From a virus, in the IMG/VR virus record IMGVR_UViG_3300006752_000113, positions 1 through 32,527 of that record: 32,527 bases of DNA; one strand, 5' to 3'. This document shows positions 3,103 to 32,090 of this stretch, piece after piece; position 1 is the first letter of the stretch; each line of letters starts with the position of its first letter. The notes beneath the pieces were generated by a model, which did not search any database, had not been told where the DNA came from, and saw only the letters and a program-made list of their open reading frames with translations. A program made the translations under genes and the position numbers.

Positions 3103-3110
3103 TATAAATA
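3103..3110 (+). promoter_or_regulatory. T4-type late promoter TATAAATA
   Basis: An exact TATAAATA ends 5 nt before the ATG at 3116. T4 late elements span about -13 to -6, so the predicted transcription start coincides with the A of the ATG: a leaderless or near-leaderless mRNA heading the sugar-gene run. Confidence 0.75.
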
Positions 3111-3115
3111 CTAGT

Positions 3116-3898
3116 ATGAAAAGAATCGTACTAGTAACAGGCGGGTTTGATCCCTTACACAGTGGGCATATAGCCTATTTCAAAGCAGCCAAAGAACTTG
3201 GTAACGAGTTATGGGTTGGTGTTAACAGTGACGAATGGTTAACAAACAAAAAAGGCATGCCGTTTATGCCTGTACAAGAAAGAATTGCTATTATTAAAGA
3301 ACTTGCTGTAGTAGACAATGTTATTACATTTGATGATGATAAGGAAGGATCTGCATGTGGTGCAATAGAAGTAGCACTTAAAACATCTGAAACAATGCAT
3401 GACATGATAGTGTTTGCTAATGGCGGTGATAGAGGTGAAGGCAATTCACCAGAAGTAACAAAATTTGCTGACAACAAAAGAGTAGAATTTAAATTTGGTG
3501 TTGGCGGAACAGACAAAAAGAACAGTTCAAGTTGGATTTTAGGAGAATGGAAAACACCTAAAACAAAACGCAAATGGGGTTGGTATAGAGTATTAGATCA
3601 TCAACCTGAAAACAATTTTAAAATTAAAGAATTAGTAATTGAGCCAGGTGCATGTCTTTCTGATCAAAGACACTTTCAAAGATCAGAACATTGGTATGTA
3701 CTAAAAGGCAAAGTTAAAATGCAAACAGAGTGGAACAACATTAGTGATACTGTAGAGCTTTTACCCTTAACAAAAGGATATGATATTTCAGTAGGTACTT
3801 GGCATAAAGCAAGTAACCCCACAGATGATTTAACACACATACTAGAAGTTCAATACGGGGAAGCCTGTGTTGAAGAGGATATTGAAAGACGTGACTAA
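3116..3898 (+). CDS. Nucleotidylyltransferase-cupin fusion protein
   Basis: Two-domain sugar enzyme (260 aa). Residues 1 to ~145 are a cytidylyltransferase-like domain with GGFDPLHSGH and the nucleotide-binding HxGH at 15-18 (RfaE-C/TagD class), probably activating a sugar- or polyol-phosphate with CTP or ATP. Residues ~150-260 are a cupin resembling the C-terminal domain of mannose-1-phosphate guanylyltransferase/mannose-6-phosphate isomerase: KWGWYRVLD, then QRH (186), SEHW (190-193) and GTWH (His230) as likely metal ligands. ManC-type enzymes normally pair this cupin with a different nucleotidyltransferase fold, so the combination is unusual. It is the first gene after the late promoter and overlaps the next gene by 8 nt. 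The substrate cannot be read from the sequence. Confidence 0.88.
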   Translation: MKRIVLVTGGFDPLHSGHIAYFKAAKELGNELWVGVNSDEWLTNKKGMPFMPVQERIAIIKELAVVDNVITFDDDKEGSACGAIEVALKTSETMHDMIVFANGGDRGEGNSPEVTKFADNKRVEFKFGVGGTDKKNSSSWILGEWKTPKTKRKWGWYRVLDHQPENNFKIKELVIEPGACLSDQRHFQRSEHWYVLKGKVKMQTEWNNISDTVELLPLTKGYDISVGTWHKASNPTDDLTHILEVQYGEACVEEDIERRD

Positions 3899-4700
3899 TT
3901 GGATTTTTGTAAGCAAGGGTAAAAAAGACCCTTATATAAATCGCTTTGCTAGAGGATGTAATCAACCTGTTCAAGATTCAAACACGTTTGATTATGATGC
4001 TTCTGAAGATCCAATTGTATTACGAGGTATTCTAAAAAAGAAGTGGATGCATAGATGTTGGGAAGATGGCAGAGATTTTTATTATATGGATACAGGATAC
4101 TTTGGTAATGAAGTAAGTCCTAGTAATCCTAATGGTTGGAAATTTTGGCATCGTATTGTAAAGAACAATCTACAACATAATAAACTAATTGACAGACCAT
4201 CTCAGAGATTTGAAGGCTTCGGCAAAAAGTTTAGGCCATGGAATAAGAAAGGTAGAAAGATTCTTATTGCAGCACCAGACGAAAAGCCTATGAAGTTTTA
4301 TGATCTTGATTTAGAAGAGTGGTTAGCAGAAACTGTTAATACACTAAAACAACACACTGACAGACCTATCGAAATTAGACAACGTAATAAACAAAGAGTA
4401 GATAGAATGCTACACAACACGCTAGAAGAAGCCTTAGACGACGATGTGTACGCTCTTGTTACATTTAATAGTAATGCAGCAGTTGAGAGTGTATTTCAGG
4501 GTATTCCGGTATTTACGTTAGCGCCTGTTAGTGCAGCAAACCCAGTCGGACTACAAGACTTATCATTAATAGAAAAACCGTATTATCCGAGCAGTGATAA
4601 ATTATTTGCTTGGGGCTGTCATTTAGCAGCAGGTCAATTTCACGACAGTGAACTACGCACAGGAAAAGCAAGAGCGTATTTGGAGGAACAATGGACTTAA
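3891..4700 (+). CDS. Capsule-type glycosyltransferase-like protein, paralog 1
   Basis: 269 aa, one of five related proteins in this cluster (also at 5389, 6168, 7271 and 10158). Shared features are a TGYFGN/KFWHRIVKN block in the N-terminal half, a short basic-aromatic RPWNKKG motif before a beta strand (ILIAAP), a TDRPIEIR stretch, and FNSNAAVESVFQGIPVF near residue 200. The last block resembles the donor-site half of KpsC/KpsS-type capsule glycosyltransferases. The role is inferred as sugar transfer. GTG at 3891 is chosen because it overlaps the previous stop by 8 nt, the compact style of this genome; an in-frame GTG at 3867 would overlap much more. The stop overlaps the next ATG by 10 nt. 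Confidence 0.8.
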   Translation: MTNWIFVSKGKKDPYINRFARGCNQPVQDSNTFDYDASEDPIVLRGILKKKWMHRCWEDGRDFYYMDTGYFGNEVSPSNPNGWKFWHRIVKNNLQHNKLIDRPSQRFEGFGKKFRPWNKKGRKILIAAPDEKPMKFYDLDLEEWLAETVNTLKQHTDRPIEIRQRNKQRVDRMLHNTLEEALDDDVYALVTFNSNAAVESVFQGIPVFTLAPVSAANPVGLQDLSLIEKPYYPSSDKLFAWGCHLAAGQFHDSELRTGKARAYLEEQWT

Positions 4701-5389
4701 AAGTATTCGTAGGATACGATACTAGAGAAGATATTGCATATCAAGTTTGCAGACACAGTATCTTAACAAGAAATGAAAACGTATCAGTAACACCGTTAAA
4801 ACAAAATGAATTAAGAGAACAAGGTTGGTATCATCGACCTGTAGATAAATTAGCGTCAACAGAATTTACATTTACACGCTTTTTAGTACCAGAGCTTACA
4901 AACTTTGATGGATGGGCATTGTTTTGTGATAGCGACATTATCTTTTTAACAGACATAAAAGAACTATTTGATCAAGCAGATGACAAGTATGCAGTTATGT
5001 GTGTGCAACATGATTATACACCTAAGGAAGGTGTAAAAATGGACGGACAAAAACAAACTATATACCCACGTAAAAATTGGTCAAGTGTAATTTTATACAA
5101 CTGTGGACATCCTAGTAACAAAAAGATTACTATGGATCTTGTAAATGATCCTGCTATTACAGGTGCATACTTACATAGATTTAGTTGGTTAGATGACAGT
5201 GAAATTGGTGAGCTAGGTAAAGAATGGAATTGGTTAGTTGACTGGTATGAAGAAACAGAAGATAGTAAACCAAAAGCAATTCATTATACAGAAGGCGGAC
5301 CTTGGTTTGACAATTATCGTAGATGCACTTACCATAAACAATGGAAAAGAGAATTATTTGAGATGATGAAATTTAAGGTTAATCTTTAA
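4691..5389 (+). CDS. GT-A glycosyltransferase with DSD motif
   Basis: 232-aa protein resembling GT8-like nucleotide-sugar transferases: an N-terminal strand (LKVFVGYDTRED), then FCDSDIIF with the DXD metal/nucleotide-sugar motif at 80-82, and a C-terminal IHYTEGGPWF segment typical of the acceptor-side His in these folds. It would transfer a sugar from a nucleotide donor in the cytoplasm. An SD (GGAGG) lies 5 nt before ATG, inside the end of the upstream gene, and the stop shares a base with the next ATG. It sits between two capsule-type paralogs, so it likely acts in the same assembly pathway. Donor and acceptor are unknown. Confidence 0.82.
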   Translation: MDLKVFVGYDTREDIAYQVCRHSILTRNENVSVTPLKQNELREQGWYHRPVDKLASTEFTFTRFLVPELTNFDGWALFCDSDIIFLTDIKELFDQADDKYAVMCVQHDYTPKEGVKMDGQKQTIYPRKNWSSVILYNCGHPSNKKITMDLVNDPAITGAYLHRFSWLDDSEIGELGKEWNWLVDWYEETEDSKPKAIHYTEGGPWFDNYRRCTYHKQWKRELFEMMKFKVNL

Positions 5390-6168
5390 TGGACAAAATA
5401 TCTCCTGAAGAAATATTGGTAGAAGGATCAGGCAACAAACTAACTGTTGAATCGTCTGAAACTGAAAAGCCAATGGTCATCAGAGGGGTAATCAAAAAAC
5501 AACATGCTGATAACTGTGTAAAAGAGAACAGAGATTATTGGTATATTGATACTGGATACTTTGGAAACTTTCCTAGTCCAGGTAATAAAAAAGGTGGAAA
5601 GAAATGGCATCGTATTGTTAAAAACGAAAACCAACTTTCTACTTTTAGACCCAACATACCAAACGATAGATGGAACATGTTAGTTGAAGATGATCCAAGA
5701 CTAGTGTGGAAAGGATGGAAAAATTACGATAAGAAAATTCTTTTAGTAATGCCTAATCCTAAAGCATGTGTTTGGTATGACATTGATTACGATAAATGGG
5801 TCAAACAAACTACAAAGACTATTAAAAAATACTGCGACTTACCTATTGAAGTAAGAGTAAAAGGTTCACGTACAGAACGTAACTTTGAATATTCAATATA
5901 TGACGCATTTGAAACTGGTGTGTATGCTACTGTCGCAATGAATAGCATGGCAGCACTAGAATCAGTACTATACGGTGTACCAGCATTTGTAAGTGTTCCT
6001 TGTGCAGCATCACCGTTAGCCTCAACCGATCTGAGTCAGCTTAGTAATCCTTACAAACCTGAAGCAGATAAAATATTACAGCACTGTCATAGTTTAGCCT
6101 ATGGACAATTTACATTTGATGAAGTAGAACAGGGCCGTGCATATAAACTAGTGGAGAAATACTCTTAA
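5389..6168 (+). CDS. Capsule-type glycosyltransferase-like protein, paralog 2
   Basis: 259 aa, closest in layout to the gene at 3891: DTGYFGNFPSPGNKKG, KKWHRIVKNENQ, a strand KILLVMPNP, LPIEVRVKG, then AMNSMAALESVLYGVPAF, in which SM replaces the usual SN of the family. The C-terminus carries a LSNPYKPEADK block also seen in paralog 1 (IEKPYYPSSDK). This suggests tandem duplication separated by the DSD transferase. The start overlaps the preceding stop (TAATG). Function as a sugar transferase is inferred from resemblance to KpsC/KpsS-like C-terminal halves; no activity can be assigned. Confidence 0.78.
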   Translation: MDKISPEEILVEGSGNKLTVESSETEKPMVIRGVIKKQHADNCVKENRDYWYIDTGYFGNFPSPGNKKGGKKWHRIVKNENQLSTFRPNIPNDRWNMLVEDDPRLVWKGWKNYDKKILLVMPNPKACVWYDIDYDKWVKQTTKTIKKYCDLPIEVRVKGSRTERNFEYSIYDAFETGVYATVAMNSMAALESVLYGVPAFVSVPCAASPLASTDLSQLSNPYKPEADKILQHCHSLAYGQFTFDEVEQGRAYKLVEKYS

Positions 6169-8928: not shown

Positions 8929-8929
8929 C

Positions 8930-9349: not shown

Positions 9350-10158
9350 CAATTAGTGTAGTAACAACATTCCACGCAAAAGGCTTACAACAGTACGGAC
9401 AACGCATGATCGACAGTTTTATCGATAATTGGCCAGAAGAAGTGAAGCTACATGTATACGCAGAAGACTGTAATCCGCGAATTAAGGACCATAATAGAGT
9501 TGTATTGTACGATTTACACTCGTCAGTACCAGAACTTGTAGCATTTAAGAATACATGGAAAGATGTACCTAAAGCAAACGGAGATGTTAGCGGAGATCCT
9601 ATAAGAAGTAAAAGAAGAGACTCAGGTAAAGGATTTAAATGGGACGCAATTCGCTTTGCACACAAAGTTTACAGTATTTTTCACTGTGCAAAAGTGTGTG
9701 ACACACAAAGATTAATGTGGATGGATGCTGATACGTTTTGTCATAGCCCAATTACGTATCAAAGACTAAATGAACTAACACCTCCTAACTTTGATGTGTG
9801 TTTTCTTGGTAGAAAAGGCAAATTTAGTGAGTGCGGACTTTATTCTCTTACACTAGGTAACAAACAAACCAAAAGATTTATGAAAGAGTTTCAACGTGTT
9901 TACGATGAAGCAGAAAATGAAGGTATTTTTCAAATGGCAGAATGGCACGACAGTTTTGTATTTGATGTTGTTCGCCAAAGAGTTAAAATGCACGAATGGG
10001 ATTGGGCAGCAGGACTTGTTACTGGTGAAGGACACCCACTAATTAACTCAATGTGGGGAGCATACCTTGATCATCTTAAAGGAGGTCGTAAGGCTCTTGG
10101 AAAAAGCAAACGTACAGACTTACTTGTACCAAGAACGGAACCATACTGGAACCAATAA
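9346..10158 (+). CDS. DXD-type nucleotide-sugar transferase, paralog of the gene at 15213
   Basis: 270-aa probable glycosyltransferase of GT-A type. An N-terminal strand ISVVTTFHAKG leads to WDAIRFAHKVYSIFHCA (about 99-115) and WMDADTF with the DXD motif at 127-129, then FLGRKGKFSECGLYSL. The gene at 15213 shares the same blocks (QYG/EYG, SVPEL.. FK, RF.HK.Y..HCA, LGR...E.G). The start at 9346 is chosen because it overlaps the previous TGA and begins the beta strand directly. Donor and acceptor are unknown. Confidence 0.82.
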   Translation: MTISVVTTFHAKGLQQYGQRMIDSFIDNWPEEVKLHVYAEDCNPRIKDHNRVVLYDLHSSVPELVAFKNTWKDVPKANGDVSGDPIRSKRRDSGKGFKWDAIRFAHKVYSIFHCAKVCDTQRLMWMDADTFCHSPITYQRLNELTPPNFDVCFLGRKGKFSECGLYSLTLGNKQTKRFMKEFQRVYDEAENEGIFQMAEWHDSFVFDVVRQRVKMHEWDWAAGLVTGEGHPLINSMWGAYLDHLKGGRKALGKSKRTDLLVPRTEPYWNQ

Positions 10159-11009
10159 TGAAATTCAAACTGTGGAAGCAACATGGCGCACTTAACTCTA
10201 AACCTATTTTTGCTGCTTTTGAACGTAGCATTGTATCTTGTGGGCATAGTGTTACTGACTCCGATACTGATAGTGACGTTAATGTTATTTGGAGCGTATT
10301 GTTTAATGGAAGAATGGCGCCTAACAAAGCAGTCTGGGAGCAAAAGAAGCCAACAATAGTATTAGAAGTAGGTGGAATTAAAAGAGGAACCACCTGGAAG
10401 GTAGGAATTAATGGAATCAATAGGGACGGTTATTTTGGTCCTGGTAATAATGATAATAGTCGTAGCAGGAATCTTGGGCTATTTTTAAAACCTTGGCGTA
10501 AAGAAGGCAAATACATTTTATTATGTGGACAGCATGATAAAAGTTTGCAATGGAAAGACATGCCTCGCATGAGTCAGTGGGTAATAGACATTGTAACTGA
10601 AATTAGAAAGTATTCAGATAGAATGATTAAGTTTAGACCGCATCCAAGGTGCCGTTTAGACTCAATTGAAGCATACCTCCCCAACGTACTTAGGCAAGAG
10701 CCCGTTCAATTGATCGGTACGTATGATGATTTCGACATGTCATTCGAAGATGTTTGGGCCACTATAAGCTGGTCAAGCAATCCAGGTATTCATAGCGTCA
10801 TAAATGGTGTTCCTGCATATACAGGCCCATCAAGTTTAGCATACGATGTTAGTATGCAAGACTTATCTACAATCGAAGATCCTATTTTGCCAGACAGAGA
10901 GCAATGGCTAAATGATTATGCATGGACTGAGTTTACTGTCGAAGAAATAGAACAAGGTCTACCACTAAAAAGATTAGAAAATTACCTAAAAACGCAAATT
11001 AACTCTTGA
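10158..11009 (+). CDS. Capsule-type glycosyltransferase-like protein, paralog 5
   Basis: 283 aa, the last gene of the first sugar run. It carries LFLKPWRKEGKYILLCGQ, SDRMIKFRPHPRCR (a clear R-P-H-P motif as in KpsC/KpsS-like enzymes) and SWSSNPGIHSVINGVPAY, the counterpart of the SNAAxESxxxGVP block of its paralogs. The N-terminal half is divergent (VNVIWSVLFNGRM). The start overlaps the previous TAA. A new sigma70 promoter begins after it, so the polycistron probably ends here, although no terminator hairpin is visible. Confidence 0.78.
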   Translation: MKFKLWKQHGALNSKPIFAAFERSIVSCGHSVTDSDTDSDVNVIWSVLFNGRMAPNKAVWEQKKPTIVLEVGGIKRGTTWKVGINGINRDGYFGPGNNDNSRSRNLGLFLKPWRKEGKYILLCGQHDKSLQWKDMPRMSQWVIDIVTEIRKYSDRMIKFRPHPRCRLDSIEAYLPNVLRQEPVQLIGTYDDFDMSFEDVWATISWSSNPGIHSVINGVPAYTGPSSLAYDVSMQDLSTIEDPILPDREQWLNDYAWTEFTVEEIEQGLPLKRLENYLKTQINS

Positions 11010-11034
11010 TCTCTGCGGCATTCTATTATATAAT
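11006..11034 (+). promoter_or_regulatory. Sigma70-type promoter, leaderless layout
   Basis: TTGATC (11006-11011), a 17-base spacer and TATAAT (11029-11034). Only six bases (AGTAGT) separate the -10 from ATG at 11041, so the expected start of transcription is at the initiation codon. No Shine-Dalgarno sequence fits in between. Confidence 0.75.
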
Positions 11035-11040
11035 AGTAGT

Positions 11041-12231
11041 ATGAGATATCACACTTTTACAGAAGATCTATTCATAGATTTCTTGGACACGCTTGAGAGA
11101 AAATATTACTCAATGCAATACCAAGACCGTTCTGCTGCTCATAGTTTTTATGATTCTATACATCAAGGAAAACAATTGACTGAGAAACAGGCCCAATATG
11201 TACTAAAGTTACTGTTCAAGTACCGTAAAGCAGTTGCAGATGAAATTGATTATAGAGATCATATGGAGATGCCTCAGTGGAAACAACCTTTCCGTGTTGT
11301 TGATATGTCTAAGAAAGTATGGATTGAAGAAATTAATAAAAAGCATATGATTGTGCTAAAATTTCCGTTTCATTTTAAAACAGAATTTGATGAGTTTATC
11401 AAAGAAGTTCGGTATGACATGGATAATGAGAATCGATGGGACGGAGAAAGAAAAGTTAGAACACTTTCTTTGTATGGTTACAATCTTGTATTACTCAAAG
11501 AATTTTTAAAAGTTAATGATTTTGAAATTGACCATGAATTTAATGATGTTGTTGAACGTGTAGAAGAAATTTATTGGGATGTAAAGGAGTACAGCAAACT
11601 TAGTAAAATTATTGAAGGTTCAGTTGAATTAAAAAACGCTAGTGACAGTGCCAAAGTATATTTTAGAAAACATAAGACTGGTAAAATAAACTCTGACTTA
11701 GTGTTAGCAAAATCTATGGGTCATATCTTTGGTGGTAAAAATAAAAACATTAACTCATGGAATAAAAAGATTGCAAGTGAAACAGGAAATCACTTTTGGA
11801 TTAAAGATTTGAGTGATTTTATCAAATTGGGTTATTCTGTTGATGGCAGAATTGCAATTATCCTTGATCGAACAGGTGATGTAAATAGTTGGTTATATAC
11901 ATTATGCGATACTATTGATAATTGCGGGTTTGATAGGAGTGATTTTAGAGTATGCTTCAGAGCCAATAAACATGCAGATGGTGATCATTTGAATACATGG
12001 GTTAGAGAACAAGGATTTGGAGGAAAAATTGAAGGTGCTAAGTTTTTAATTTTTAATCAAAAACCTGCAAAGTGGTTGTTCAAAGACGAAAAAGATGTTA
12101 CAATACTAGCAAGTAATAATTTATTTGCAACAGGTACTAGTATGATGAGAAACTTATTTAAAAATCACCCGTGTATTGTATACATCGGCGATATCGAACC
12201 AACAATTCAGGAGCCTTTAATTGAACTGTAA
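11041..12231 (+). CDS. UvsW-adjacent protein, possible helicase accessory protein
   Basis: 396-aa protein not firmly recognised. The segment around residues 130-170 (RWDGERKVRTLSLYGYNLVLLKEFL, then NDFEIDHEF) resembles the small HARP/helicase-N type region found in front of SF2 helicases, where a WDG...W pattern contacts DNA. No Walker A or DEAD motif is present. The second half has a possible Rossmann-like stretch (DGRIAIILDRTGD) and ends with hydrophobic strands (DVTILASNN, CIVYIGDI). It overlaps the UvsW start by 11 nt, suggesting coupled synthesis. It may be a catalytically dead helicase-like partner of UvsW; this is inference. Confidence 0.75.
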   Translation: MRYHTFTEDLFIDFLDTLERKYYSMQYQDRSAAHSFYDSIHQGKQLTEKQAQYVLKLLFKYRKAVADEIDYRDHMEMPQWKQPFRVVDMSKKVWIEEINKKHMIVLKFPFHFKTEFDEFIKEVRYDMDNENRWDGERKVRTLSLYGYNLVLLKEFLKVNDFEIDHEFNDVVERVEEIYWDVKEYSKLSKIIEGSVELKNASDSAKVYFRKHKTGKINSDLVLAKSMGHIFGGKNKNINSWNKKIASETGNHFWIKDLSDFIKLGYSVDGRIAIILDRTGDVNSWLYTLCDTIDNCGFDRSDFRVCFRANKHADGDHLNTWVREQGFGGKIEGAKFLIFNQKPAKWLFKDEKDVTILASNNLFATGTSMMRNLFKNHPCIVYIGDIEPTIQEPLIEL

Positions 12232-14130: not shown

Positions 14131-14258
14131 GTAGTATTGAAAATAAAATATTAAAGTTAAAAGAAAGCATAGAAGTATGCAAAGCAGAGAAAGTTAATTA
14201 TAAGATTATCGAAAGATTACAACAACGCCTAAAGGAATTAGAAGATAAGATTTCTTGA
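14124..14258 (+). CDS. Small coiled-coil protein, 44 aa
   Basis: A short open frame starting inside the end of the previous gene. The product is almost entirely charged heptad-like helix (ENKILKLKESIEV, then IIERLQQRLKELEDKI), so a short coiled coil is likely. The downstream promoter's TTGACA overlaps its stop codon. Function unknown. Confidence 0.62.
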   Translation: MVGSIENKILKLKESIEVCKAEKVNYKIIERLQQRLKELEDKIS

Positions 14259-14283
14259 CAAATCGCATGTAATCGTATATAAT
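14255..14283 (+). promoter_or_regulatory. Perfect sigma70 promoter with tandem 10-bp repeat
   Basis: TTGACA at 14255-14260, a 17-base spacer and TATAAT at 14278-14283: full consensus. The sequence AATCGTATAT is repeated exactly in tandem (14271-14280 and 14281-14290) across the -10 region. The start is expected near 14290, giving a leader of about 19 nt with AAGGAAA before the ATG at 14309. Confidence 0.85.
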
Positions 14284-14308
14284 CGTATATACAAATAAGG
14301 AAAAATAA

Positions 14309-14818
14309 ATGAGTAGAATTTTGACATTAGATAACAAGGCGTTCAATTTAAATGAACTACCCGAAGAAGTGGAAGAGGACGCAAGATTTAGTGTGCTTGA
14401 TAATAGTGAACCAGGCAATCCAGATTTCTTCTTCATGCCACTTATATTTTTAGAAAGTTTTAATAGTCCAGCAATCTTAATGAATATTGGAGGATATGAA
14501 ATACAAATGCCGCTAGATTGGTGTATGTTAATTGGAGATAGCGATTGTGCTACAGATCCAGAAGTATTACCGTTAACTAGTATTAACGAAAGAGGATTTG
14601 AAGCATTCTGTATGAATCCAATTAAAGGTTATAGGGCTGATTTTCAACCAGTAGAAATAGTAAACATCTACCAAGACGTAAGATGGTTTTTTCCAAAGAT
14701 GAAAAACGGACAACTATTATCAGTTCCATTGCATGACGGTGATAATCCGCCATGTGTTTACTTTGTTAAAGAAATTAGTAGACAGTCAGAACAAGTCGAA
14801 TTGGCTAACTTACTCTGA
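14309..14818 (+). CDS. Conserved marine T4-like phage protein of unknown function
   Basis: 169-aa protein of a type I recognise from marine T4-like phages, with no known activity. The central block FFFMPLIFLESFNSPAILM, GGYEIQMPLDWCMLIGD and LPLTSINERGFEAF looks like a beta-rich, folded domain; the N-terminus (LDNKAFNLNELPEEVEED) is acidic. It has its own full-consensus promoter, suggesting strong early expression and a core role in takeover or replication. Role unknown. Confidence 0.85.
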   Translation: MSRILTLDNKAFNLNELPEEVEEDARFSVLDNSEPGNPDFFFMPLIFLESFNSPAILMNIGGYEIQMPLDWCMLIGDSDCATDPEVLPLTSINERGFEAFCMNPIKGYRADFQPVEIVNIYQDVRWFFPKMKNGQLLSVPLHDGDNPPCVYFVKEISRQSEQVELANLL

Positions 14819-20177: not shown

Positions 20178-20206
20178 TTGCATTTATTTGCTAAAGATAG
20201 TACAAT
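20178..20206 (+). promoter_or_regulatory. Sigma70-type promoter, leaderless layout
   Basis: TTGCAT (20178-20183), 17-base spacer, TACAAT (20201-20206). ATG of the lipoprotein gene begins 6 nt after the -10, so transcription should start at the ATG itself. There is no room for a Shine-Dalgarno site. Confidence 0.68.
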
Positions 20207-20212
20207 ATAACT

Positions 20213-20371
20213 ATGATTAGACTTTTATTTGTAGCCATTATTCTATTACTTCCGGCTTGTAGCACAACTGTAGCAGTTTTGGATGTTACAGCAAGTACTG
20301 CCATTTATGCAGGAAAGACAGTAGTAAATACAATAGATATAGTTACGCCAGATATTGTTAACAAGGACTAG
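20213..20371 (+). CDS. Tiny lipoprotein, 52 aa
   Basis: A signal peptide (MIRLLFVAIILLLPAC) ends in a lipobox LPAC with Cys16, so the mature product is about 37 residues anchored in a membrane by lipid. The mature part (STTVAVLDVTASTAIYAGKT region) is small and uncharged. Phage lipoproteins of this size act as outer spanin subunits or superinfection-exclusion proteins; neither can be chosen here. It sits first in a unit headed by its own promoter. Confidence 0.78.
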   Translation: MIRLLFVAIILLLPACSTTVAVLDVTASTAIYAGKTVVNTIDIVTPDIVNKD

Positions 20372-23778: not shown

Positions 23779-23841
23779 GCACGTATAGAACACAAAATGC
23801 ATAAAAAAATAATTTTTTATGCCCTAATTTTTCAGGAGATA

Positions 23842-24341: not shown

Positions 24342-24354
24342 TTGTTCTCGTTTC

Positions 24355-24362
24355 GATAAATA
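24355..24362 (+). promoter_or_regulatory. Late promoter variant GATAAATA, leaderless layout
   Basis: GATAAATA (one mismatch to TATAAATA) ends exactly 5 nt before the ATG at 24368, predicting a transcript that starts at the start codon of the probable virion protein. Confidence 0.65.
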
Positions 24363-24367
24363 TACAT

Positions 24368-25273
24368 ATGCAAAGTCATTCAATATATTTATATCCAAAT
24401 CTACTCGACGTCTATGATAATGGCGTTGCAGGTGCTTGGAAAGTGGAGAGAAAACGTATGGTATACAATAGAGGGCTGATGGCTTATCGTAGTGTCGATA
24501 ATAGAATTGATCTACAGGTAAGAAACAGCGATGAAAAGAAATATAATATAACAGGATCAACAATCGTGTTTAATATTATAAACAAAGAAAATAGCGATTT
24601 AGTGCTTAGTAAAGATTGTTCAGTAGACGACTTAACACTTGGTAGAGTGTATGTTGTACTAACAGCAGCTGAACTACAAGAACTAGAGCCAGGATTTTAT
24701 AACTATAGCATCACTAAAGAAGTAAGACAAACAGTTGACTCCACCGACTATAAAGTTACTTCGAGAACTCCGCTATACTTTGATCCACACTACGGTGCAA
24801 TGGGTAACTTAGAAATTATGGGTGACGTGCTAGGTACTCCTTATAACACTATAGAAGTTTATAAGTTTAAGAAAGATATTGATTGGGATTCTGTAGCAAC
24901 ACTACCAAGCGACACACCACAGTTTAACAATCCAAGACCAAACTATAATCAAACTAATACTTCTAATCAAATATATGATGAGTATCATTACAGCAGTATT
25001 GTAGATCTTAAGCCAAATATGCAAAGTCCAAATAGTTTACACACTCTACAGTTTTATTTCAAAAACTATGAAGGGCAAGTAATTATTCAAGGCAGTTTGG
25101 CTGATGGCGGCTCGCCAAGTGCAGACAGTTGGTATGATTTACAAACATTTGACGTCACAACAACAGATGGCAATTTGTTTAAAAACCAAACTGGAAAGCA
25201 TAATTGGTTTAGAGTTAAACACGAACCAACCCAAGATAATACAGGTTCTTTGGATAAAATCTTAGTAAGATAG
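24368..25273 (+). CDS. Probable virion (baseplate or fibre-type) structural protein
   Basis: 301 aa, beta-rich with few charged helices. The first ~125 residues (RIDLQVRNSDEKKYNITGS, TIVFNII, VYVVLTAAELQELEPGFYNYSI) resemble the N-terminal domain of baseplate-upper-protein-type phage proteins. The C-terminal part (HTLQFYFKNYEGQVIIQGSL, DSWYDLQTFDVTTTDGN) looks like a jelly-roll or fibronectin-like head. It stands alone between a divergent gene and the primase and has its own late-type promoter, as expected for a virion gene. Specific identity is not known. Confidence 0.7.
   Translation: MQSHSIYLYPNLLDVYDNGVAGAWKVERKRMVYNRGLMAYRSVDNRIDLQVRNSDEKKYNITGSTIVFNIINKENSDLVLSKDCSVDDLTLGRVYVVLTAAELQELEPGFYNYSITKEVRQTVDSTDYKVTSRTPLYFDPHYGAMGNLEIMGDVLGTPYNTIEVYKFKKDIDWDSVATLPSDTPQFNNPRPNYNQTNTSNQIYDEYHYSSIVDLKPNMQSPNSLHTLQFYFKNYEGQVIIQGSLADGGSPSADSWYDLQTFDVTTTDGNLFKNQTGKHNWFRVKHEPTQDNTGSLDKILVR
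24386..24393 (-). promoter_or_regulatory. Minus-strand late promoter TATAAATA
   Basis: TATTTATA on the + strand reads as TATAAATA on the minus strand, inside the start of the virion gene. RNA would begin near 24380 and run into the minus-strand gene starting at 24341. Together with the plus-strand GATAAATA at 24355 it forms an overlapping divergent late pair. Confidence 0.5.
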
Positions 25274-25274
25274 G

Positions 25275-25302
25275 TTGACATTACCCACAAAGATGTTATA
25301 CT
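25275..25302 (+). promoter_or_regulatory. Sigma70-type promoter, leaderless layout, for primase
   Basis: TTGACA (25275-25280), 16-base spacer, TATACT (25297-25302), then 6 bases (AATACT) to ATG at 25309. The predicted start is at the ATG, and no ribosome site is present. Confidence 0.72.
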
Positions 25303-25308
25303 AATACT

Positions 25309-26319
25309 ATGACTCTGGTATTAGATAAATTTCGAACACTCGTGCCTTCACGTGCTAAAGCTAGTCCTTCAGGTTGGACAAGTTTTAACGCACCGTGTTG
25401 TTCTCATCGAGGTCATTCTCCAGACAAACGTAAGCGTGGCGGTTTGAAATTTGATATGGGTGTAGTGTATAACTGCTTTAACTGTAAGTACAGTGCAAGT
25501 TGGGAACCAGGTAGACCTTTATCAAATAAGTTCAAAAATTTATGTAGATGGTTAGGTGCTAACGAAGATGATATCAATCAAATGATATTTGAAGCACTTA
25601 AAACTGAATCACCAGAGTACACTCCGCGAGAAGTTTCTAGCACAGTTACGTTTACGCCTAAAACATTACCAGAGGGTGCTTTAGCAATACGTGATTGGTT
25701 AGAAGCTGATCTCAACGAGGATGAAGAAGCTAGTCTAGCAGAAGTAGTTAAGTATCTACTAGAAAGAGATTGTGATCCTGTTAGCAAACACTTTTATTGG
25801 ACACCACTTGAAGGATACAAAGATAGAGTCATTATCCCATTTTGGTACAAAGGAAGTATTGTAGGATCAACTGCTAGGAAAGTTAAAGATGGCAGACCTA
25901 AATACATTTCCGATCATCATCCACACTTTGTCTATAACGTTGACGAACAAAAGGAAGATCAGAAATATATATTTGTAACAGAAGGACCGTTTGATGCACA
26001 AGCCATTGGCGGTGTAGCGTTGCTTACTAATAATATTCACGAGCAACAAGCAAGGATTATTAATAGTTTAGGTCAAGAAGTTGTCGTTATCCCAGATCAG
26101 GATAGTGCAGGTGTCGAGCTCATTAACAAGGCTGATGAGTGTGGTTGGCATGTTGCTTTTCCTAACTGGGGTAGTGATGTAAAAGATGTTGCTGATGCAG
26201 TTAAACGTTACGGTAAGTTGTTTGTACTAGTAGACGCAATGAAAACAGCAGTGCAAGGCTCTATTAAGTTGAGTGTTGCTAAAAATAACTTTGAACATAA
26301 GTTGGAGAATATGCAATGA
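25309..26319 (+). CDS. DNA primase, gp61/DnaG type
   Basis: 336-aa primase that makes RNA primers for lagging-strand synthesis with the gp41 helicase (encoded at 28322). An N-terminal zinc-binding region has Cys30/31, His33/36 and the CFNC pair at 56-59. The TOPRIM catalytic core shows FVTEGPFDA with Glu225 and VVVIPDQDSAG with Asp263/Asp265. The region between (RVIIPFWYKGSIVGSTARK, KYI) matches the DnaG RNA-polymerase fold. T4 gp61 is 342 aa, a good length match. Its own promoter precedes it. Confidence 0.93.
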   Translation: MTLVLDKFRTLVPSRAKASPSGWTSFNAPCCSHRGHSPDKRKRGGLKFDMGVVYNCFNCKYSASWEPGRPLSNKFKNLCRWLGANEDDINQMIFEALKTESPEYTPREVSSTVTFTPKTLPEGALAIRDWLEADLNEDEEASLAEVVKYLLERDCDPVSKHFYWTPLEGYKDRVIIPFWYKGSIVGSTARKVKDGRPKYISDHHPHFVYNVDEQKEDQKYIFVTEGPFDAQAIGGVALLTNNIHEQQARIINSLGQEVVVIPDQDSAGVELINKADECGWHVAFPNWGSDVKDVADAVKRYGKLFVLVDAMKTAVQGSIKLSVAKNNFEHKLENMQ

Positions 26320-26438
26320 AGCGTGTTAAACAATGGTTCATACAGAAATGGGATTGGCTTGTTGACAAGTACTATGCTTGGAAACTTAAACGTATGAATA
26401 AAAAGAACAAGAACAAAGACCCGTTTATCTACAAGTAG
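26316..26438 (+). CDS. Small basic amphipathic protein, 40 aa
   Basis: ATGA overlap with the primase stop. Tryptophan- and lysine-rich: VKQWFIQKWDWLVDKYYAWK, then a KRMNKKNKNKD stretch. It could bind membrane or nucleic acid as an amphipathic helix. No family is recognised. Confidence 0.6.
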   Translation: MKRVKQWFIQKWDWLVDKYYAWKLKRMNKKNKNKDPFIYK

Positions 26439-26460
26439 TATGGTAGAAAGGATAATAACA

Positions 26461-26697
26461 ATGAAGAATGAATTTCAAATAGGGATGTTTGAACTACTCA
26501 AGAATCTACTAAAAGGAAACAGTGCTGTATTAGCGTTAATTTATACACTAGGACACATTGTAATAGCCATGACGGTAGTCAGTTTACTAACTGGCGCAAG
26601 TATTTGGGAAGCAGGATTAGTTGCTCTGGTTGAGCCAACTATTAATGGTTTCTGGTTTTATATTTTACATTCACTATGGAAAAAATATAACACATGA
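26461..26697 (+). CDS. DUF2061-like membrane protein
   Basis: 78 aa with two hydrophobic helices: AVLALIYTLGHIVIAMTVVSLL and AGLVALVEPTINGFWFYIL, ending HSLWKK. This matches the DUF2061 pattern of small two-span proteins (a wide family with no known function). ATG at 26461 is chosen because AAAGGA lies 7-8 nt upstream; an upstream ATG at 26440 lacks a ribosome site. It overlaps the carbamoyltransferase start by ATGA. Confidence 0.75.
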   Translation: MKNEFQIGMFELLKNLLKGNSAVLALIYTLGHIVIAMTVVSLLTGASIWEAGLVALVEPTINGFWFYILHSLWKKYNT

Positions 26698-28160: not shown

Positions 28161-28190
28161 TAACATAATTACGTATGAGAGAAGATAATA

Positions 28191-28322
28191 ATGAGTAAGA
28201 AAAGAAACAAATTTGAAAGAAAGCTAGACGAATATAATCATACAATGGAATTGATTAGAACTATCGTTCCAATTATTGTACTAGGCTTACAAATTTATAT
28301 TATAATAGAGTTAATAAAGTAA
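28191..28322 (+). CDS. Small membrane protein, 43 aa
   Basis: A polar basic N-terminus (KKRNKFERKLDEYNH) is followed by a hydrophobic span (ELIRTIVPIIVLGLQIYIII). AGAAG precedes the ATG, and its TAA shares a base with the helicase ATG. Likely an inner-membrane protein. Function unknown. Confidence 0.66.
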   Translation: MSKKRNKFERKLDEYNHTMELIRTIVPIIVLGLQIYIIIELIK

Positions 28323-29755
28323 TGGCAAAAAATTACGATTACGAAGTACAAAAAGTTTATCTAGAAATGATGTTAGCAGATGCTGAGACATTTGTTAGAT
28401 GTCAAGGTATATTTGATAGTACTTTGTTTGATAGAAAATTGCAAGAAGCGGCTGAGTTTGTAAACATGTATACTAAAGAGTATAACGTGTTGCCTGACTA
28501 TGACATGGTTAATGCAAGTTGCAAAACAGATTTAAAACATCCAGGTGAAGTTAAAGAAGGACACACAAATTGGTTAATGGATGAGTTTGAAAGTTTTACA
28601 AGACATAAAAGTTTAGAACGTGCAATTTTAAAAAGTGCTGACTTACTAGAACAAAACGAATATGGTGAAGTCGAAGGACTTGTAAAAGAAGCAGTACAAA
28701 TTGGACTAGCACGTGACATGGGTACAGATTACTTTTTAGATCCTAAAGCAAGACTTATGGGACTTAAAGATAAGAACGGACAAGTTACAACTGGTTGGGA
28801 TAGTTTAGATAGAAAACTGTTCGGCGGATTTAACAGAGGCGAACTGAATATATTTGCAGGTGGTTCAGGTGCAGGTAAAAGTTTGTTCTTAGCAAACTTA
28901 GGTGTTAACTTTGCATTAGAAGGTCTTAACGTTGTTTACTTAACACTAGAACTTAGTGAAGCACTTGTTAGTATGCGTGTTGATAGTATGGTAACAGGTA
29001 TTAGCACAAGAAACATTTTTAAAGATCTTGATGATGTAGAAATGAAAGTTAAGATGATTGGCAAGAAAGCAGGCATGATGCAGATCAAATATATGCCTAG
29101 TGGAAAGACTGCTAATGATATTAGAGCGTATCTAAAAGAATATGAAATTAAAGCAGGCAAAAAAGTAGATGTATTATTAGTAGACTACTTAGACTTGCTT
29201 ATGCCAATAGGTAAAAAGATTAGTGCAGAGAACTTGTTTGTAAAAGACAAGTATGTATCTGAAGAGCTACGTAACTTAGCAATGGAACTGCAAACTGTAT
29301 TTGTTACAGCGGCACAGTTGAATAGAGGTGCAGTAGAAGAAGTAGAGTTTGATCATTCACACATTAGTGGTGGACTTAGTAAGATTCAAACAGCAGATAA
29401 CGTATTTGGTATTTTTACAAGTAGAGCAATGCGTGAAAGAGGCAGATATCAAATACAATTAATGAAAACACGTTCAAGTAGTGGTGTAGGACAAAAAGTC
29501 GATTTAGGCTTTGACATTGACACGCTACGTATTGTAGACATAGATGAAGATGAACAAGAGTCTACAAACGGAGAACGTTCAGGCAATTCAAGTATTATAG
29601 ATTCAATCAAAAGAAAAACAGCAACCACAGGCGAAAGCAACACACCCACTGATGATCCAACAGATGGCGCATCGGTCGGTAAGATTAGAGGCAAGGTAGA
29701 ATCAACCAAGCTGAGAGAAATTTTATCGAACATGGGTAGTGATGAAGAATACTAA
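28322..29755 (+). CDS. gp41: Replicative DNA helicase gp41 (DnaB-like)
   Basis: Hexameric 5'-3' helicase (477 aa; T4 gp41 is 475) that unwinds the fork and works with the gp61 primase. The N-terminal helical domain spans about 1-140. The RecA-like motor follows with TGWDSLDRKLFGGFNRGEL, Walker A GGSGAGKS at 180-187, VVYLTLELSE (catalytic Glu region) and Walker B VLLVDYLDLL with Asp288. The tail is Ser/Thr/Gly-rich, then SNMGSDEEY. It overlaps the next small gene by 14 nt. Confidence 0.95.
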   Translation: MAKNYDYEVQKVYLEMMLADAETFVRCQGIFDSTLFDRKLQEAAEFVNMYTKEYNVLPDYDMVNASCKTDLKHPGEVKEGHTNWLMDEFESFTRHKSLERAILKSADLLEQNEYGEVEGLVKEAVQIGLARDMGTDYFLDPKARLMGLKDKNGQVTTGWDSLDRKLFGGFNRGELNIFAGGSGAGKSLFLANLGVNFALEGLNVVYLTLELSEALVSMRVDSMVTGISTRNIFKDLDDVEMKVKMIGKKAGMMQIKYMPSGKTANDIRAYLKEYEIKAGKKVDVLLVDYLDLLMPIGKKISAENLFVKDKYVSEELRNLAMELQTVFVTAAQLNRGAVEEVEFDHSHISGGLSKIQTADNVFGIFTSRAMRERGRYQIQLMKTRSSSGVGQKVDLGFDIDTLRIVDIDEDEQESTNGERSGNSSIIDSIKRKTATTGESNTPTDDPTDGASVGKIRGKVESTKLREILSNMGSDEEY

Positions 29756-29993
29756 AGTAAAAATACACGAGTGGCGCACCTATGCTGACCAAACCGCCGA
29801 TGCACAATACGACATTGATTGGCCTGATGTACAAAAAGCAATTGGCAAAGATCATTGTGCTTGGTTATTAGCACAAGACCCCGAAGACGTTCAACTCATG
29901 TTAGAAGTAAAAGGCAGTGGTCAGAAACGTCTTGTCGCAGATTTCTATAACAATAAGACACTTGTTACATATCACCTAATGTGGGCTAAATAG
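29742..29993 (+). CDS. Hypothetical protein, 83 aa
   Basis: Soluble acidic protein starting inside the helicase tail (ATG 29742, with a GTG one codon earlier as alternative). It contains WRTYADQTADAQYDIDWPDV and LLAQDPEDVQLMLEV, then a basic C-terminal strand. No family is recognised. The downstream late motif overlaps its end. Confidence 0.68.
   Translation: MKNTKVKIHEWRTYADQTADAQYDIDWPDVQKAIGKDHCAWLLAQDPEDVQLMLEVKGSGQKRLVADFYNNKTLVTYHLMWAK
29985..29992 (+). promoter_or_regulatory. Late promoter variant with TAAATA core, leaderless layout
   Basis: GCTAAATA ends 5 nt (GTAGT) before ATG at 29998. The CTAAATA core is a late-promoter variant seen in marine T4-like phages. The spacing matches the 3116, 24368 and 31737 genes. 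Confidence 0.55.
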
Positions 29994-29997
29994 TAGT

Positions 29998-30705
29998 ATG
30001 CGCATTGTAGAACTACTCAACGAAGAAGTCATGACCGTTAACAAGAAGTTAAACCCAGTCTTATGGGAAGGCGGTTCTCTTAAACCTGAAATAAGAGAAA
30101 AACTTATTGAGATTGCAAAAGTGTTCCAAGAGTTTATAGGTGTAGAACTAGATGTAGCAGACTATACACTAACAGGTTCAAACGCAAACTTTACATGGAC
30201 AGAGTACAGTGATTTAGATTTACATATCATTGTTCGCGGCATGCCTAGTGATGAACAAAGAGAACTGTATAATGCAAAGAAAGCATTGTGGGCAGAAGAA
30301 CATAACATACGCATTAAGAACTTACCCGTAGAGTGTTATGTGCAAGGTGCTAAAGAACCACATCATTCAACGGGTGTTTACAGTTTAAGTGGTAACAAAT
30401 GGCTTGTTGAGCCTAAGAAAGTTAAGCCAAACATTAATGACGCTGCTGTAAGTGCAAAGAAAGACAGCATACAGCACGACATAGAAGCAGCATTAATATC
30501 TAAAGACTTACCTAAGATGCGTATAGCAAAACAAAAGCTGACCAAGATGCGCAAAGCAGGACTTGAAAGAGCAGGCGAATTCAGTGTAGAAAATATTGTA
30601 TTCAAACAACTGCGTAATTTAGGCATGATTGATCAACTCAGTGATGAAATACGTGACCTAGAAGATGCACAGTTAAGCCTAGAACAAGCACCAGAATTAG
30701 TATAA
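29998..30705 (+). CDS. Nucleotidyltransferase-fold protein
   Basis: 235 aa. Residues ~57-80 show LTGSNANFTWTEYSDLDLHII, the G-S followed by D-x-D pattern of the pol-beta/MNT-type nucleotidyltransferase fold (GS at 60-61, DLDLH at 71-75). The rest is helical and charged, with a basic segment around 165-190 (SKDLPKMRIAKQKLTKMRK). The enzyme may transfer a nucleotide to RNA, protein or antibiotic-like substrate; the substrate is unknown. It is headed by a late-type motif. Confidence 0.75.
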   Translation: MRIVELLNEEVMTVNKKLNPVLWEGGSLKPEIREKLIEIAKVFQEFIGVELDVADYTLTGSNANFTWTEYSDLDLHIIVRGMPSDEQRELYNAKKALWAEEHNIRIKNLPVECYVQGAKEPHHSTGVYSLSGNKWLVEPKKVKPNINDAAVSAKKDSIQHDIEAALISKDLPKMRIAKQKLTKMRKAGLERAGEFSVENIVFKQLRNLGMIDQLSDEIRDLEDAQLSLEQAPELV

Positions 30706-30720
30706 CTCTATACTAAAAAA

Positions 30721-30728
30721 ATTAAATA
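30721..30728 (+). promoter_or_regulatory. Late promoter variant ATTAAATA
   Basis: TAAATA core with AGTAGTAACAG following. RNA would start near 30734 and give a leader of about 23 nt that contains AAAGGAC before ATG at 30757. Confidence 0.45.
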
Positions 30729-30756
30729 GTAGTAACAGAATAAAGGACAGAGCGCA

Positions 30757-31203
30757 ATGCTTAAGGTTATTAATACCTGTGACGAATGGGTATCACAAAT
30801 CATAAAAGACGATCCAGTAAGACCACATTTAACGGCTGATTATCGAATCAACGAAGTAGCAGAAATGTTTGGTCTTTACGATGATAAAGAATATTTAGGT
30901 AGTGTTTGTTGTGTACGTTATACCGATGGTATTCCTAACAGTGTAAACGATATGACAGAGCGCAGTAGCATGTTCAGTGACACTGCTGTATTCTATACTA
31001 TTTGGAGTTACAGTAAAGGAAGTGGTAGACAGTTAATCATTGACGCTTCTAACTGGATCATTGAAAATAGACCACAGATTAAAAACCTAGTTACACTAAG
31101 TCCTACAACTGAAATGGCTGAACGCTTTCATTTACGCAATGGTGCTGTTAAATGGCGTATCAATGAAGATTCAGTTAATTACGCCTATCAATTAAAAGCC
31201 TAG
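30757..31203 (+). CDS. GNAT-like acetyltransferase-fold protein
   Basis: 148 aa with GNAT features: strands YLGSVCCVRYTDGIP and AVFYTIWSYSKGSGRQLI, in which SKGSGRQLI resembles the acetyl-CoA pyrophosphate loop (Q/RxxGxG/A), then LVTLSPTTEMAERFHLRNGA, the usual helix after strand 5, and WRINEDSVNYAYQL. The target is unknown. An AAAGGAC site precedes the ATG. Confidence 0.65.
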   Translation: MLKVINTCDEWVSQIIKDDPVRPHLTADYRINEVAEMFGLYDDKEYLGSVCCVRYTDGIPNSVNDMTERSSMFSDTAVFYTIWSYSKGSGRQLIIDASNWIIENRPQIKNLVTLSPTTEMAERFHLRNGAVKWRINEDSVNYAYQLKA

Positions 31204-31227
31204 GGATAACTACAGTCAAAGGAATTT

Positions 31228-31416
31228 ATGGCTGGAATAAAAAAGCGTGGGCTTGTTACTAGACATCATATCAGAACACATGACGACCGTGAAGTTGTAC
31301 CTTGCAGACTTGTAGGATCTAATGGCGGTAAAGGTGTTATGGTAGCACAGTACAAAGACACAAGAGACCTTGTACTAGATGCAGAACAAAAACCCGTTAT
31401 GTATAATCGCTGTTAG
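31228..31416 (+). CDS. Small basic hypothetical protein, 62 aa
   Basis: Basic N-terminal half (IKKRGLVTRHHIRTHDDR), then a short beta-like segment (EVVPCRLVGSNGGKGVMVA) and a C-terminal ending Asn-Arg-Cys. An AAAGGA site lies 6 nt before the ATG. It ends 20 nt from the convergent minus-strand gene. Function unknown; nucleic-acid binding is possible from charge. Confidence 0.68.
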   Translation: MAGIKKRGLVTRHHIRTHDDREVVPCRLVGSNGGKGVMVAQYKDTRDLVLDAEQKPVMYNRC

Positions 31417-31435
31417 TTACATTAGGCTTATAGAA

Positions 31436-31573
31436 TTACTTGTTCTTGCGTAGCTTACGCAATCGCCCCCATCGACGTGTAGTAACTCCTTCTACAATAT
31501 TTTTTGTGAGTTTTCTTCTTTTACGAGCTTGTGTGCTGCGATGCAGTCTAAGAGACTTACCAACTTTTTTCAT
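31436..31573 (-). CDS. Very basic micro-protein, 45 aa
   Basis: Minus-strand open frame starting 27 nt downstream of the tRNA 3' end, with AGAGGG about 8 nt before the ATG. About 19 of 45 residues are Lys or Arg, in patches RKRRK (17-21) and RRWGRLRKLRKNK (33-45), with few acidic residues. It probably binds RNA or DNA. Its position behind a tRNA on one transcript suggests RNA binding or host takeover, but only composition and context support that. Confidence 0.66.
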   Translation of the reverse strand: MKKVGKSLRLHRSTQARKRRKLTKNIVEGVTTRRWGRLRKLRKNK

Positions 31574-31599
31574 AACTAGTTCCCTCTATAATACAATTC

Positions 31600-31676
31600 T
31601 GGCGCGGCTAAAGAGATTCGAACTCCTGACCTTAGGTTCCGCAAACCTACGCTCTATCCAGCTGAGCTATAGCCGC
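31600..31676 (-). tRNA. tRNA-Arg, anticodon GCG
   Basis: 77-nt cloverleaf read on the minus strand. Acceptor GCGGCTA pairs perfectly with TAGCCGC, then discriminator G and encoded CCA. D-arm GCTC/GAGC with GG and A20 in the loop (an Arg identity base). Anticodon stem TAGGT/ACCTA with loop TTGCGGA, anticodon GCG for CGC/CGU. T-arm AGGAG/CTCTT with loop TTCGAAT. A sigma70-type promoter lies 5' of it. GCG is unusual because bacteria normally read CGU/CGC/CGA with an ACG (inosine) tRNA; this tRNA may supplement a codon shortage. Confidence 0.92.
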
Positions 31677-31687
31677 CTATATTAATA

Positions 31688-31716
31688 ATTATACCACATT
31701 TACGCAAAGAAGTCAA
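31688..31716 (-). promoter_or_regulatory. Sigma70-type promoter for tRNA-Arg and the basic micro-protein
   Basis: Read on the minus strand: TTGACT (31711-31716), 17-base spacer, TATAAT (31688-31693). Start expected about 7 nt downstream, just before the tRNA acceptor stem. It is divergent from the late motif at 31724-31731. Confidence 0.8.
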
Positions 31717-31723
31717 CTGTTAT

Positions 31724-31731
31724 TTTAAATA
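31724..31731 (+). promoter_or_regulatory. Late promoter variant TTTAAATA, leaderless layout
   Basis: TTTAAATA ends 5 nt (CTAGC) before ATG at 31737, again placing the expected RNA start at the initiation codon. The 5-nt tract CTAGC is close to the CTAGT before the 3116 gene. Confidence 0.58.
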
Positions 31732-31736
31732 CTAGC

Positions 31737-32090
31737 ATGACACAAGAACAGGTCTTATTTGCCATTATATCTTGGATAGTGCTTACAACTGTAGTGTATA
31801 CGGTGGTAGGTTGGAAGAACATACGCAACTGTTATGCTATGTGGTTCACTCGAGAGTATTGGACAAACTATAATATAATCGAAGCAGCAAGTTGGATAGC
31901 CAAGGCCATCATAATCATACCGGGTCTGATATTTGGCATTCAAATTTGGCAGTTCTATTTTGTAGCACTTTTTACAAGCCTAACGTTAATTTGGGCCAGT
32001 AACAAGAAGCTGCTGCCCACGCTGGTTGGATTCAACACACTATGGATATGGCTGAGCATGATGGTTATAGCACAGCAGGTAATACAATGA
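31737..32090 (+). CDS. Membrane protein, 117 aa
   Basis: Mostly hydrophobic with about four spans: 7-25 (LFAIISWIVLTTVVYTVVGW), 52-70 (WIAKAIIIIPGLIFGIQIW), 72-88 (FYFVALFTSLTLIWASN) and 95-115. Aromatic-rich loops lie between. It overlaps the next membrane-protein gene by ATGA, so the two probably work as a pair. No family is recognised. Confidence 0.75.
   Translation: MTQEQVLFAIISWIVLTTVVYTVVGWKNIRNCYAMWFTREYWTNYNIIEAASWIAKAIIIIPGLIFGIQIWQFYFVALFTSLTLIWASNKKLLPTLVGFNTLWIWLSMMVIAQQVIQ

Follow-up and report, generated by a model that had tools for sequence, protein, structure and literature searches.

Leaderless genes are well known in bacteria (PMC3160421, PMC5397173): the Deinococcus-Thermus group is rich in them (PMC3160421), and 'TA-led' genes have, in place of a Shine-Dalgarno (SD) site, a -10-like TANNNT box some 12 bp ahead of the start codon (Zheng et al. 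2011, PMC3160421). For phages, the lambda cI mRNA is named as leaderless (PMC9031893), and a paper on phage AR9, whose own leaders measure 26-491 nt, states in citing another work that phage transcripts 'are often leaderless' (PMC5312081). Here we analyse a 32,527-nt stretch of viral DNA (IMG/VR record IMGVR_UViG_3300006752_000113, positions 1 to 32,527; this whole stretch is called the window). This fragment of a T4-type jumbo phage has genes for a gp32-like ssb, UvsX, UvsY, a helicase, a primase and a DnaB-type helicase, and a run of sugar genes. To judge by the placement and conservation of promoter elements in the window and its relatives, sigma70 and a gp55-type late sigma very probably make leaderless mRNAs, or mRNAs with leaders of 0-3 nt, for the primase, terminase, tail and other genes of this clade. 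We keep to this double wording because the spacing varies by 1-2 nt. Among the open-licence papers listed in our literature searches was no report of a systematic leaderless class in T4-type phages or under a T4-type late promoter, which is no proof of absence.

A -10 hexamer normally spans positions -12 to -7. The T4 late box, which has no conserved -35, precedes the transcription start by about one helical turn (PMC2988020). With elements so placed, both promoter classes of the window would have their +1 at the A of AUG or at a neighbouring base. The sequence-only reading of the window had placed three sigma70-type -10 elements 6 nt, and four TAAATA motifs 5 nt, before an ATG, with no SD site at any of them. 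All seven spacings hold, and no SD site is visible before any of the seven starts:

25275..26319, plus strand: sigma70 promoter TTGACA-16-TATACT, its -10 (25297-25302) ending 6 nt before the ATG of the DNA primase gene 25309-26319
11006..12231, plus strand: sigma70 promoter TTGATC-17-TATAAT, its -10 (11029-11034) ending 6 nt before the ATG of a 396-aa gene, 11041-12231
20178..20371, plus strand: weak sigma70 promoter TTGCAT-17-TACAAT, its -10 (20201-20206) ending 6 nt before the ATG of a 52-aa frame, 20213-20371
3103..3898, plus strand: late-type TATAAATA (TAAATA at 3105) ending 5 nt before the ATG of a nucleotidyltransferase-like gene, 3116-3898, at the head of the sugar run
24357..25273, plus strand: late-type TAAATA (24357) 5 nt before the ATG of a virion-protein-like gene, 24368-25273
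29987..30705, plus strand: TAAATA (29987) 5 nt before the ATG of a 235-aa gene, 29998-30705; an ambiguous site, since the motif and the stop codon of the preceding gene overlap
31726..32090, plus strand: TAAATA (31726) 5 nt before the ATG of a gene for a 117-aa hydrophobic protein, 31737-32090

The 396-aa product of 11041-12231 has no PHROGs match. The 52-aa frame, which is below the 60-aa cut-off of the open reading frame listing, has a lipobox-like N-terminus (LLPACS) and is perhaps a small lipoprotein. Near 31693, a promoter-like site of a minus-strand tRNA-Arg with anticodon GCG (window 31600-31737) diverges from the late box of the 31737 gene.

From the window alone, the spacing pattern is only suggestive. 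TAAATA-N5-ATG occurs four times against a shuffle mean of 0.74, and 9 of 1000 shuffles contained at least four. For the sigma70 type at 6 nt (at most 3 mismatches), three occurrences compare with a shuffle mean of 1.05, and at least three were found in 91 of 1000 shuffles; the three comprise an internal ATG at 9996 besides 11041 and 25309, the site at 20213 failing with 4 mismatches. The comparison with shuffled sequence proposed along with the spacing claim gives modest support to the late class, and the sigma70 class is not significant alone.

We turned to relatives, which are abundant in IMG/VR: matches were found at no fewer than 596 helicase and 559 terminase loci, and the best 80 of each were used. 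The clade set comprises 210 partly overlapping sequences (3.4 Mb), namely the window, 89 loci, 40 pieces and 80 terminase loci. The region of the window is contained in a 91.8-kb IMG/VR contig, G021, in which the primase is 100% identical and the four late sites lie at one constant offset. The nearest isolates by helicase identity are PA5oct (52%), Atu_ph07 (50%) and Phosso (50%), with SCTP-2 at 42%. As for a host, the only confirmed terminase relative in genome contigs (65% identical, TAAATA 7 nt before the start) is on a 7.6-kb contig of a metagenome-assembled genome labelled Betaproteobacteria TMED41, which is too weak to name one.

In what follows, d is the number of nucleotides between the end of the promoter hexamer (-10 or TAAATA) and the start codon. 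In the ortholog surveys, the in-frame ATG nearest the aligned start was taken and matches with too little upstream sequence were dropped (for 11041, 16 of 20 matches were used). Identical stretches were counted once in the family distance profile, the hexamer ranking, the class and SD counts, the ortholog counts called distinct, the -1 base and the ssb leader; clone-like contigs were counted separately for the primase, 11041, helicase, 29998, terminase, tail-tube, adaptor and virion-protein orthologs. Loci L082, L083 and L087, from the same contigs as L001-L003, were omitted from the primase, 11041, helicase and 29998 surveys, and kept in the family profile and later counts. Because the contigs are mostly fragments and highly related, counts over the clade are not independent events and family counts are the better guide.

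The family profile was built from ATG-led frames of at least 60 aa in the 210 sequences, with 173 families having a TAAATA and 73 a sigma70 promoter. Families with TAAATA peak sharply at d=5 (48 families) and d=4 (33), with 0-3 families at d=0-3 and 2-4 at d=9-15. Those with a sigma70 promoter peak at d=6 (17 families), with 0-1 at d=0-3 and 0-3 at d=9-15. In both classes a second, broad hump of leadered genes follows beyond the near-empty gap at d=9-15. Measured leaders in Lactococcus cremoris are bimodal too, none having 4-14 nt in the data reported (PMC10986495). The same picture emerged from the 80 helicase loci, in which TTGACA-N17-TANNNT occurs 258 times, followed by an ATG at d=6 in 84 cases (against 2 at d=5 and 9 at d=7) and again, in a broad second hump, at d=25-33. 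A strict sigma70 pattern at d=6 gave 52 matches in 21 clade contigs (none of them in G019 or G021) and 8 in 13 isolates, against 2 and 1 for the reversed control, and at least 120 stretches with TTGACA-N17-TATAAT-N6-ATG are present in the whole sequence collection. When an in-frame upstream stop and a frame of at least 80 aa were required, late promoters fell into 231 instances (43 families) at d=4-7, 11 (9 families) at d=9-15 and 236 (67 families) at d=16-34; sigma70 promoters fell into 50 instances (12 families) at d=5-8, 7 (6 families) in the gap and 93 (38 families) in the leadered class. Furthermore, a ranking of all hexamers at distances 0-19 before ATG, which did not presuppose the motif, was headed in the clade by TAAATA at d=5, with a count of 273 where the mean is 13, although the z values are unusable as probabilities because many other high rows look like homologous coding or SD stretches. 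TAAATA at d=5 is not among the 22 top rows listed for T4, PA5oct, Atu_ph07 and Syn9, those of T4 and Atu_ph07 being SD motifs. Chance in AT-rich DNA, or a motif and spacing chosen post hoc, would fit the shuffle counts of the window; given that family peaks stand at both predicted spacings in the relatives and that the ranking was blind to the motif, we hold this explanation to have next to no probability for the pattern as a whole, though the single sites at 31737 and 29998 may still be chance.

If the close promoters give leaderless mRNAs, SD sites should be rare before their starts, and this is what we observed. At a spacing of 4-11 nt, an SD site precedes 3/231 late and 1/50 sigma70 starts of the close class, compared with 136/236 and 78/93 in the leadered class. 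A pyrimidine occupies position -1 in 192/229 late and 43/47 sigma70 starts of the close class, and in 136/234 and 54/89 of the leadered ones. Composition logos anchored at the ATG of script-called genes were mixed.

The arrangement is conserved gene by gene to very different degrees. For the primase, a -10 lies at d=5-8 in 85 of 87 loci (d=5 in 8, d=6 in 66, d=7 in 9, d=8 in 2), the two exceptions being Atu_ph07 (28 nt) and, by elimination, PA5oct with its GTG start. The 11041 family has it at d=5-6 in 15/16 orthologs, 20213 at d=6 in 4/4 distinct orthologs, and the helicase has a promoter at d=5-7 in 50/86. On the late side, TAAATA is at d=5 in 24/26 distinct orthologs of 3116 (for each of the seven sites, here and below, the window itself is in the count). 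Further genes, whose functions come from PHROGs matches of the G021 copies (a weak match for the 193-aa protein), follow the same rule: terminase with d=5 in 68 of 80 rows, d=4 in 5, d=6 in 1, a near-miss in 2 and none in 4, two of which are PA5oct and T4, both included in the 80; tail tube with d=5 in 51/52; head-tail adaptor with d=5 in 8/9; a 793-aa virion protein with d=5 in 61/80 and d=7 in 18/80; and the 193-aa virion protein with d=5 in 61/61. Three sites of the window are less favourable. At 31737, TAAATA is at d=4 or 5 in only 4/12 distinct orthologs, a weak conservation. At 24368, 6 of 59 distinct orthologs are of the leaderless type and lack an SD; in the other 53 the box stands at a greater distance, mostly 18-23 nt, and 37 of these have an SD. 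This gene uses both arrangements, the leaderless one only in a minority of orthologs. At 29998, 55 orthologs divide into TAAATA at d=5 (11), at d=4 (19), SD (23) and neither (2), and the case is ambiguous because the TAAATA doubles as the last codons and stop of the upstream gene (GCT AAA TAG). The leaderless reading proposed for the window is supported in that both spacings recur across many families in which SD sites are rare, while they are common in leadered genes; it is weakened at these three sites.

Several of the 24368 orthologs printed, leaderless or leadered, have a TTNTTCTCAT-like stretch before the late box.

Leadered genes stand beside the close-spaced ones in the window itself:

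100..1193, plus strand: consensus sigma70 promoter TTGACA-17-TATAAT and a leader with AGGAGG before the ATG of the gp32-like ssb gene 186-1193
14255..14818, plus strand: consensus sigma70 promoter 25 nt before the ATG of gene 14309-14818
30723..31203, plus strand: TAAATA 28 nt before the ATG of gene 30757-31203

The choice of 30757 as a leadered example was borne out, TAAATA lying 20-35 nt upstream in 28/38 distinct orthologs. The promoter of 14309 was not seen before distant orthologs of that gene, and the query for 23842, also named as leadered, was not a whole gene and had only 2 distinct matches. The ssb leader (window 100-186; orthologs L188-L267) is conserved: in many orthologs TAAATA lies between the -35 and the -10, a short palindrome encloses the -10 and AGGCAT-like repeats are found ahead of the SD, and in close relatives a 9-codon frame (MLRHESENI) begins 7 nt after the -10.

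We then counted leaderless-type starts per called gene. They make up 5/41 in the window, 11/91 in G021, with which the window overlaps, and 15/141, 26/243 and 19/159 in contigs G004, G007 and G002 (10.6-12.2%), compared with 0/224 in T4, 0/150 in Syn9, 1/171 in the part of Atu_ph07 and 1/96 and 2/46 in the parts of PA5oct covered; G015 and one part each of PA5oct and Atu_ph07 were left out. A few of these starts may be false, because an in-frame ATG qualified even when it lay as many as 40 codons downstream of the called start. Among isolates, Atu_ph07, Vibrio 2.275.O, SE_PL and PBECO4 have a primase gene with a more distant promoter or with an SD, and 10 nt separate the primase start of Phosso from the gene before it. 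PA5oct and PAC2 (Pseudomonas phages) resemble the clade in having TTGACA-17-TATAAT-6-GTG before the likely primase start, as does SCTP-2 (a Salicola phage) with TTGACA-16-TAGCAT-6-ATG, of which the -10 is weak; PA5oct differs in showing no TAAATA peak at d=5 in the parts covered.

Some promoters are directly preceded by a terminator. In the terminase and tail-tube genes, a hairpin and T-run end just before TAAATA: the 57 nt upstream of the G021 promoters fold with -15.9 and -22.6 kcal/mol, none of 200 shuffles being as stable in either case; the sequence preceding 3116 in G021, folded likewise, forms no hairpin out of the ordinary (z 0.24). By a simple rule, a terminator lies within about 14 nt upstream of TAAATA in 56/231 close and 2/236 leadered instances. 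The argument rests on two families, because these 56 are 43/43 terminase instances, 10/12 tail tube and 3 others. A transcript that starts past such a terminator has room for no more than about 10 nt of leader; RNA reading through it would carry the hairpin, and no SD site precedes the terminase or tail-tube starts even at the widest spacing considered. Terminators that abut TAAATA also bear on whether TAAATA-N5-AUG is no promoter at all, and instead an element of the RNA, such as the operator of a RegA-like translational repressor. Its fixed position relative to AUG would agree with such a role. Yet the same hexamer occurs 16-34 nt upstream in other genes, often together with an SD, and farther upstream in most 24368 orthologs, and a second, unrelated promoter class behaves alike. 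We consider the RNA-element explanation very improbable.

The terminators weigh as well against a more serious alternative, namely that the close promoters exist and translation nevertheless proceeds mainly from longer read-through mRNAs, by coupling or leadered initiation, the spacing being a result of compact genomes. This explanation draws on the first three of the following observations, all of which count against leaderless expression or its generality. In 102/229 late and 25/47 sigma70 close cases, an upstream same-strand frame of at least 60 aa runs into the promoter element or past it, and therefore coupling in a read-through mRNA is possible there. TAAATA overlaps the upstream stop in the 193-aa virion family, as it does at 29998, where it may be a coding coincidence or a sign of translational coupling. 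The SD contrast also depends on the spacing allowed: at 3-12 nt, SD sites are found in 32/231 late and 2/50 sigma70 close starts (leadered 145/236 and 79/93), and at 3-14 nt in 46/231 and 2/50 (leadered 149/236 and 79/93). Indeed, 27 of the 32 late-close cases at 3-12 nt belong to the 193-aa virion family, to which a 111-aa family adds 12/12 at 3-14 nt, and the SD-like motifs of both families sit just upstream of TAAATA, where they could serve read-through RNA. Some promoters at d=7 make leaders of 1-3 nt possible. Leaderless mRNAs should favour AUG; the counts of ATG versus GTG/TTG starts suggest such a preference in the late class (close 231 vs 6, gap 11 vs 28, leadered 236 vs 36) and do not in the sigma70 class (close 50 vs 4, leadered 93 vs 2), and codons 2-5 show no consistent difference between close and leadered genes. 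Close spacing also occurs elsewhere: T4 has 10/225 TAAATA at d=5, above its mean, none of the ten at the start of a called gene, and Atu_ph07 and PA5oct have one case each that does coincide with such a start. In Syn9, the hexamer rows listed include TACAAT at d=6 (5 against 0.5), so that close spacing may be in weak use outside the clade. Against translation from read-through mRNAs stands, besides the terminators in all terminase and most tail-tube instances, that compactness predicts neither a peak at a single base-pair distance nor a near-empty range at d=9-15, and that the census found no such start in T4 and Syn9. Taken together, we judge it unlikely as the main route.

Leaderless expression, which we prefer, would work as follows. 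Around 11-12% of the called genes of the clade would be expressed as leaderless mRNAs, in two sets. The first (primase, the 11041 family, often the DnaB helicase, and some small proteins) would use a host-type sigma70 promoter with its -10 at 6 nt (5-8) before AUG; the second (terminase, tail tube, head-tail adaptor, virion proteins and the 3116 sugar gene) would use a TAAATA late promoter 5 nt (4-7) before AUG, probably read by the gp55-type sigma. RNA polymerase would begin transcripts with the A of AUG, or no more than about 3 nt away, and ribosomes would initiate at the 5'-terminal AUG without an SD site, the remaining genes being leadered and often SD-led. The actual 5' ends, the temporal class, the sigma that acts at TAAATA, a ribosomal route through 70S binding and any regulatory benefit are our inferences.

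The late box itself may be of the T4 kind. In 56 late sites (with hexamer and ATG fixed by the search) there is no strong -35, A is found at -12 in 55%, no base is preferred at -13 and T stands at -1 in 82%. A gp55-family late sigma (phrog_12791) is encoded in 6/21 clade contigs, several of them large, and in 6/6 isolates searched; it was not found in G021, a fragment that contains the region of the window. The clade shares with T4 the gp55 homolog and probably a late box about one helical turn before the transcription start, apparently without a conserved -35. It differs in that the T4 TATAAATA is followed by ATG mostly at d=23-29, whereas the clade peaks at d=5 with a leadered late class beside it, and in that its box is TAAATA, the first two bases of TATAAATA not being conserved.

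With the bacterial TA-led genes, the arrangement shares its computational signature, since both the spacing of a -10-like element and the scarcity of SD sites are found here; it differs in belonging to T4-type phages and in adding a phage-type late-box class, which a Pribnow-based search would not model. The likeness to lambda cI is that of a phage mRNA translated leaderless, and the difference is that replication and structural genes are concerned here. The lambda gene is a single repressor gene of a temperate phage. Thermus phage P23-45 reportedly makes leaderless middle and late transcripts by temporal class; it differs in that its host belongs to a group in which leaderless genes abound, Deinococcus-Thermus, and the word 'leaderless' does not occur in a 2024 paper on it.

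Raised IF3 inhibits some leaderless mRNAs and low IF3 can stimulate them, while one study finds IF3 required, according to a review (PMC9031893). A phage S21 was found in 4/6 isolates searched (PA5oct, Atu_ph07, SCTP-2, Phosso) and a phage IF3 in 3/6 (Atu_ph07, 121Q, Phosso), and neither was found in 21 clade contigs, mostly fragments; this is a correlation in incomplete contigs and no evidence of cause. We offer only as a tentative idea, which is rather doubtful, that two parallel translation programmes, SD-led and leaderless, are set gene by gene under promoters of either class, a possible benefit being that the translation of primase and structural genes depends less on SD recognition or IF3 when infection alters the host ribosome.

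Discussions of leaderless initiation usually concern bacteria, archaea or single phage genes; for the replication and structural genes of T4-type jumbo phages, descriptions of it are few. Here we find an arrangement conserved over many genes in common aquatic jumbo phages, which involves host-type as well as phage-type promoters and essential genes. It affects annotation, as in SCTP-2 and PAC2 (L392, L394), whose annotation begins the primase some 100 nt later than the likely leaderless start, and it makes this clade natural material in which to test what leaderless mRNAs gain during infection.

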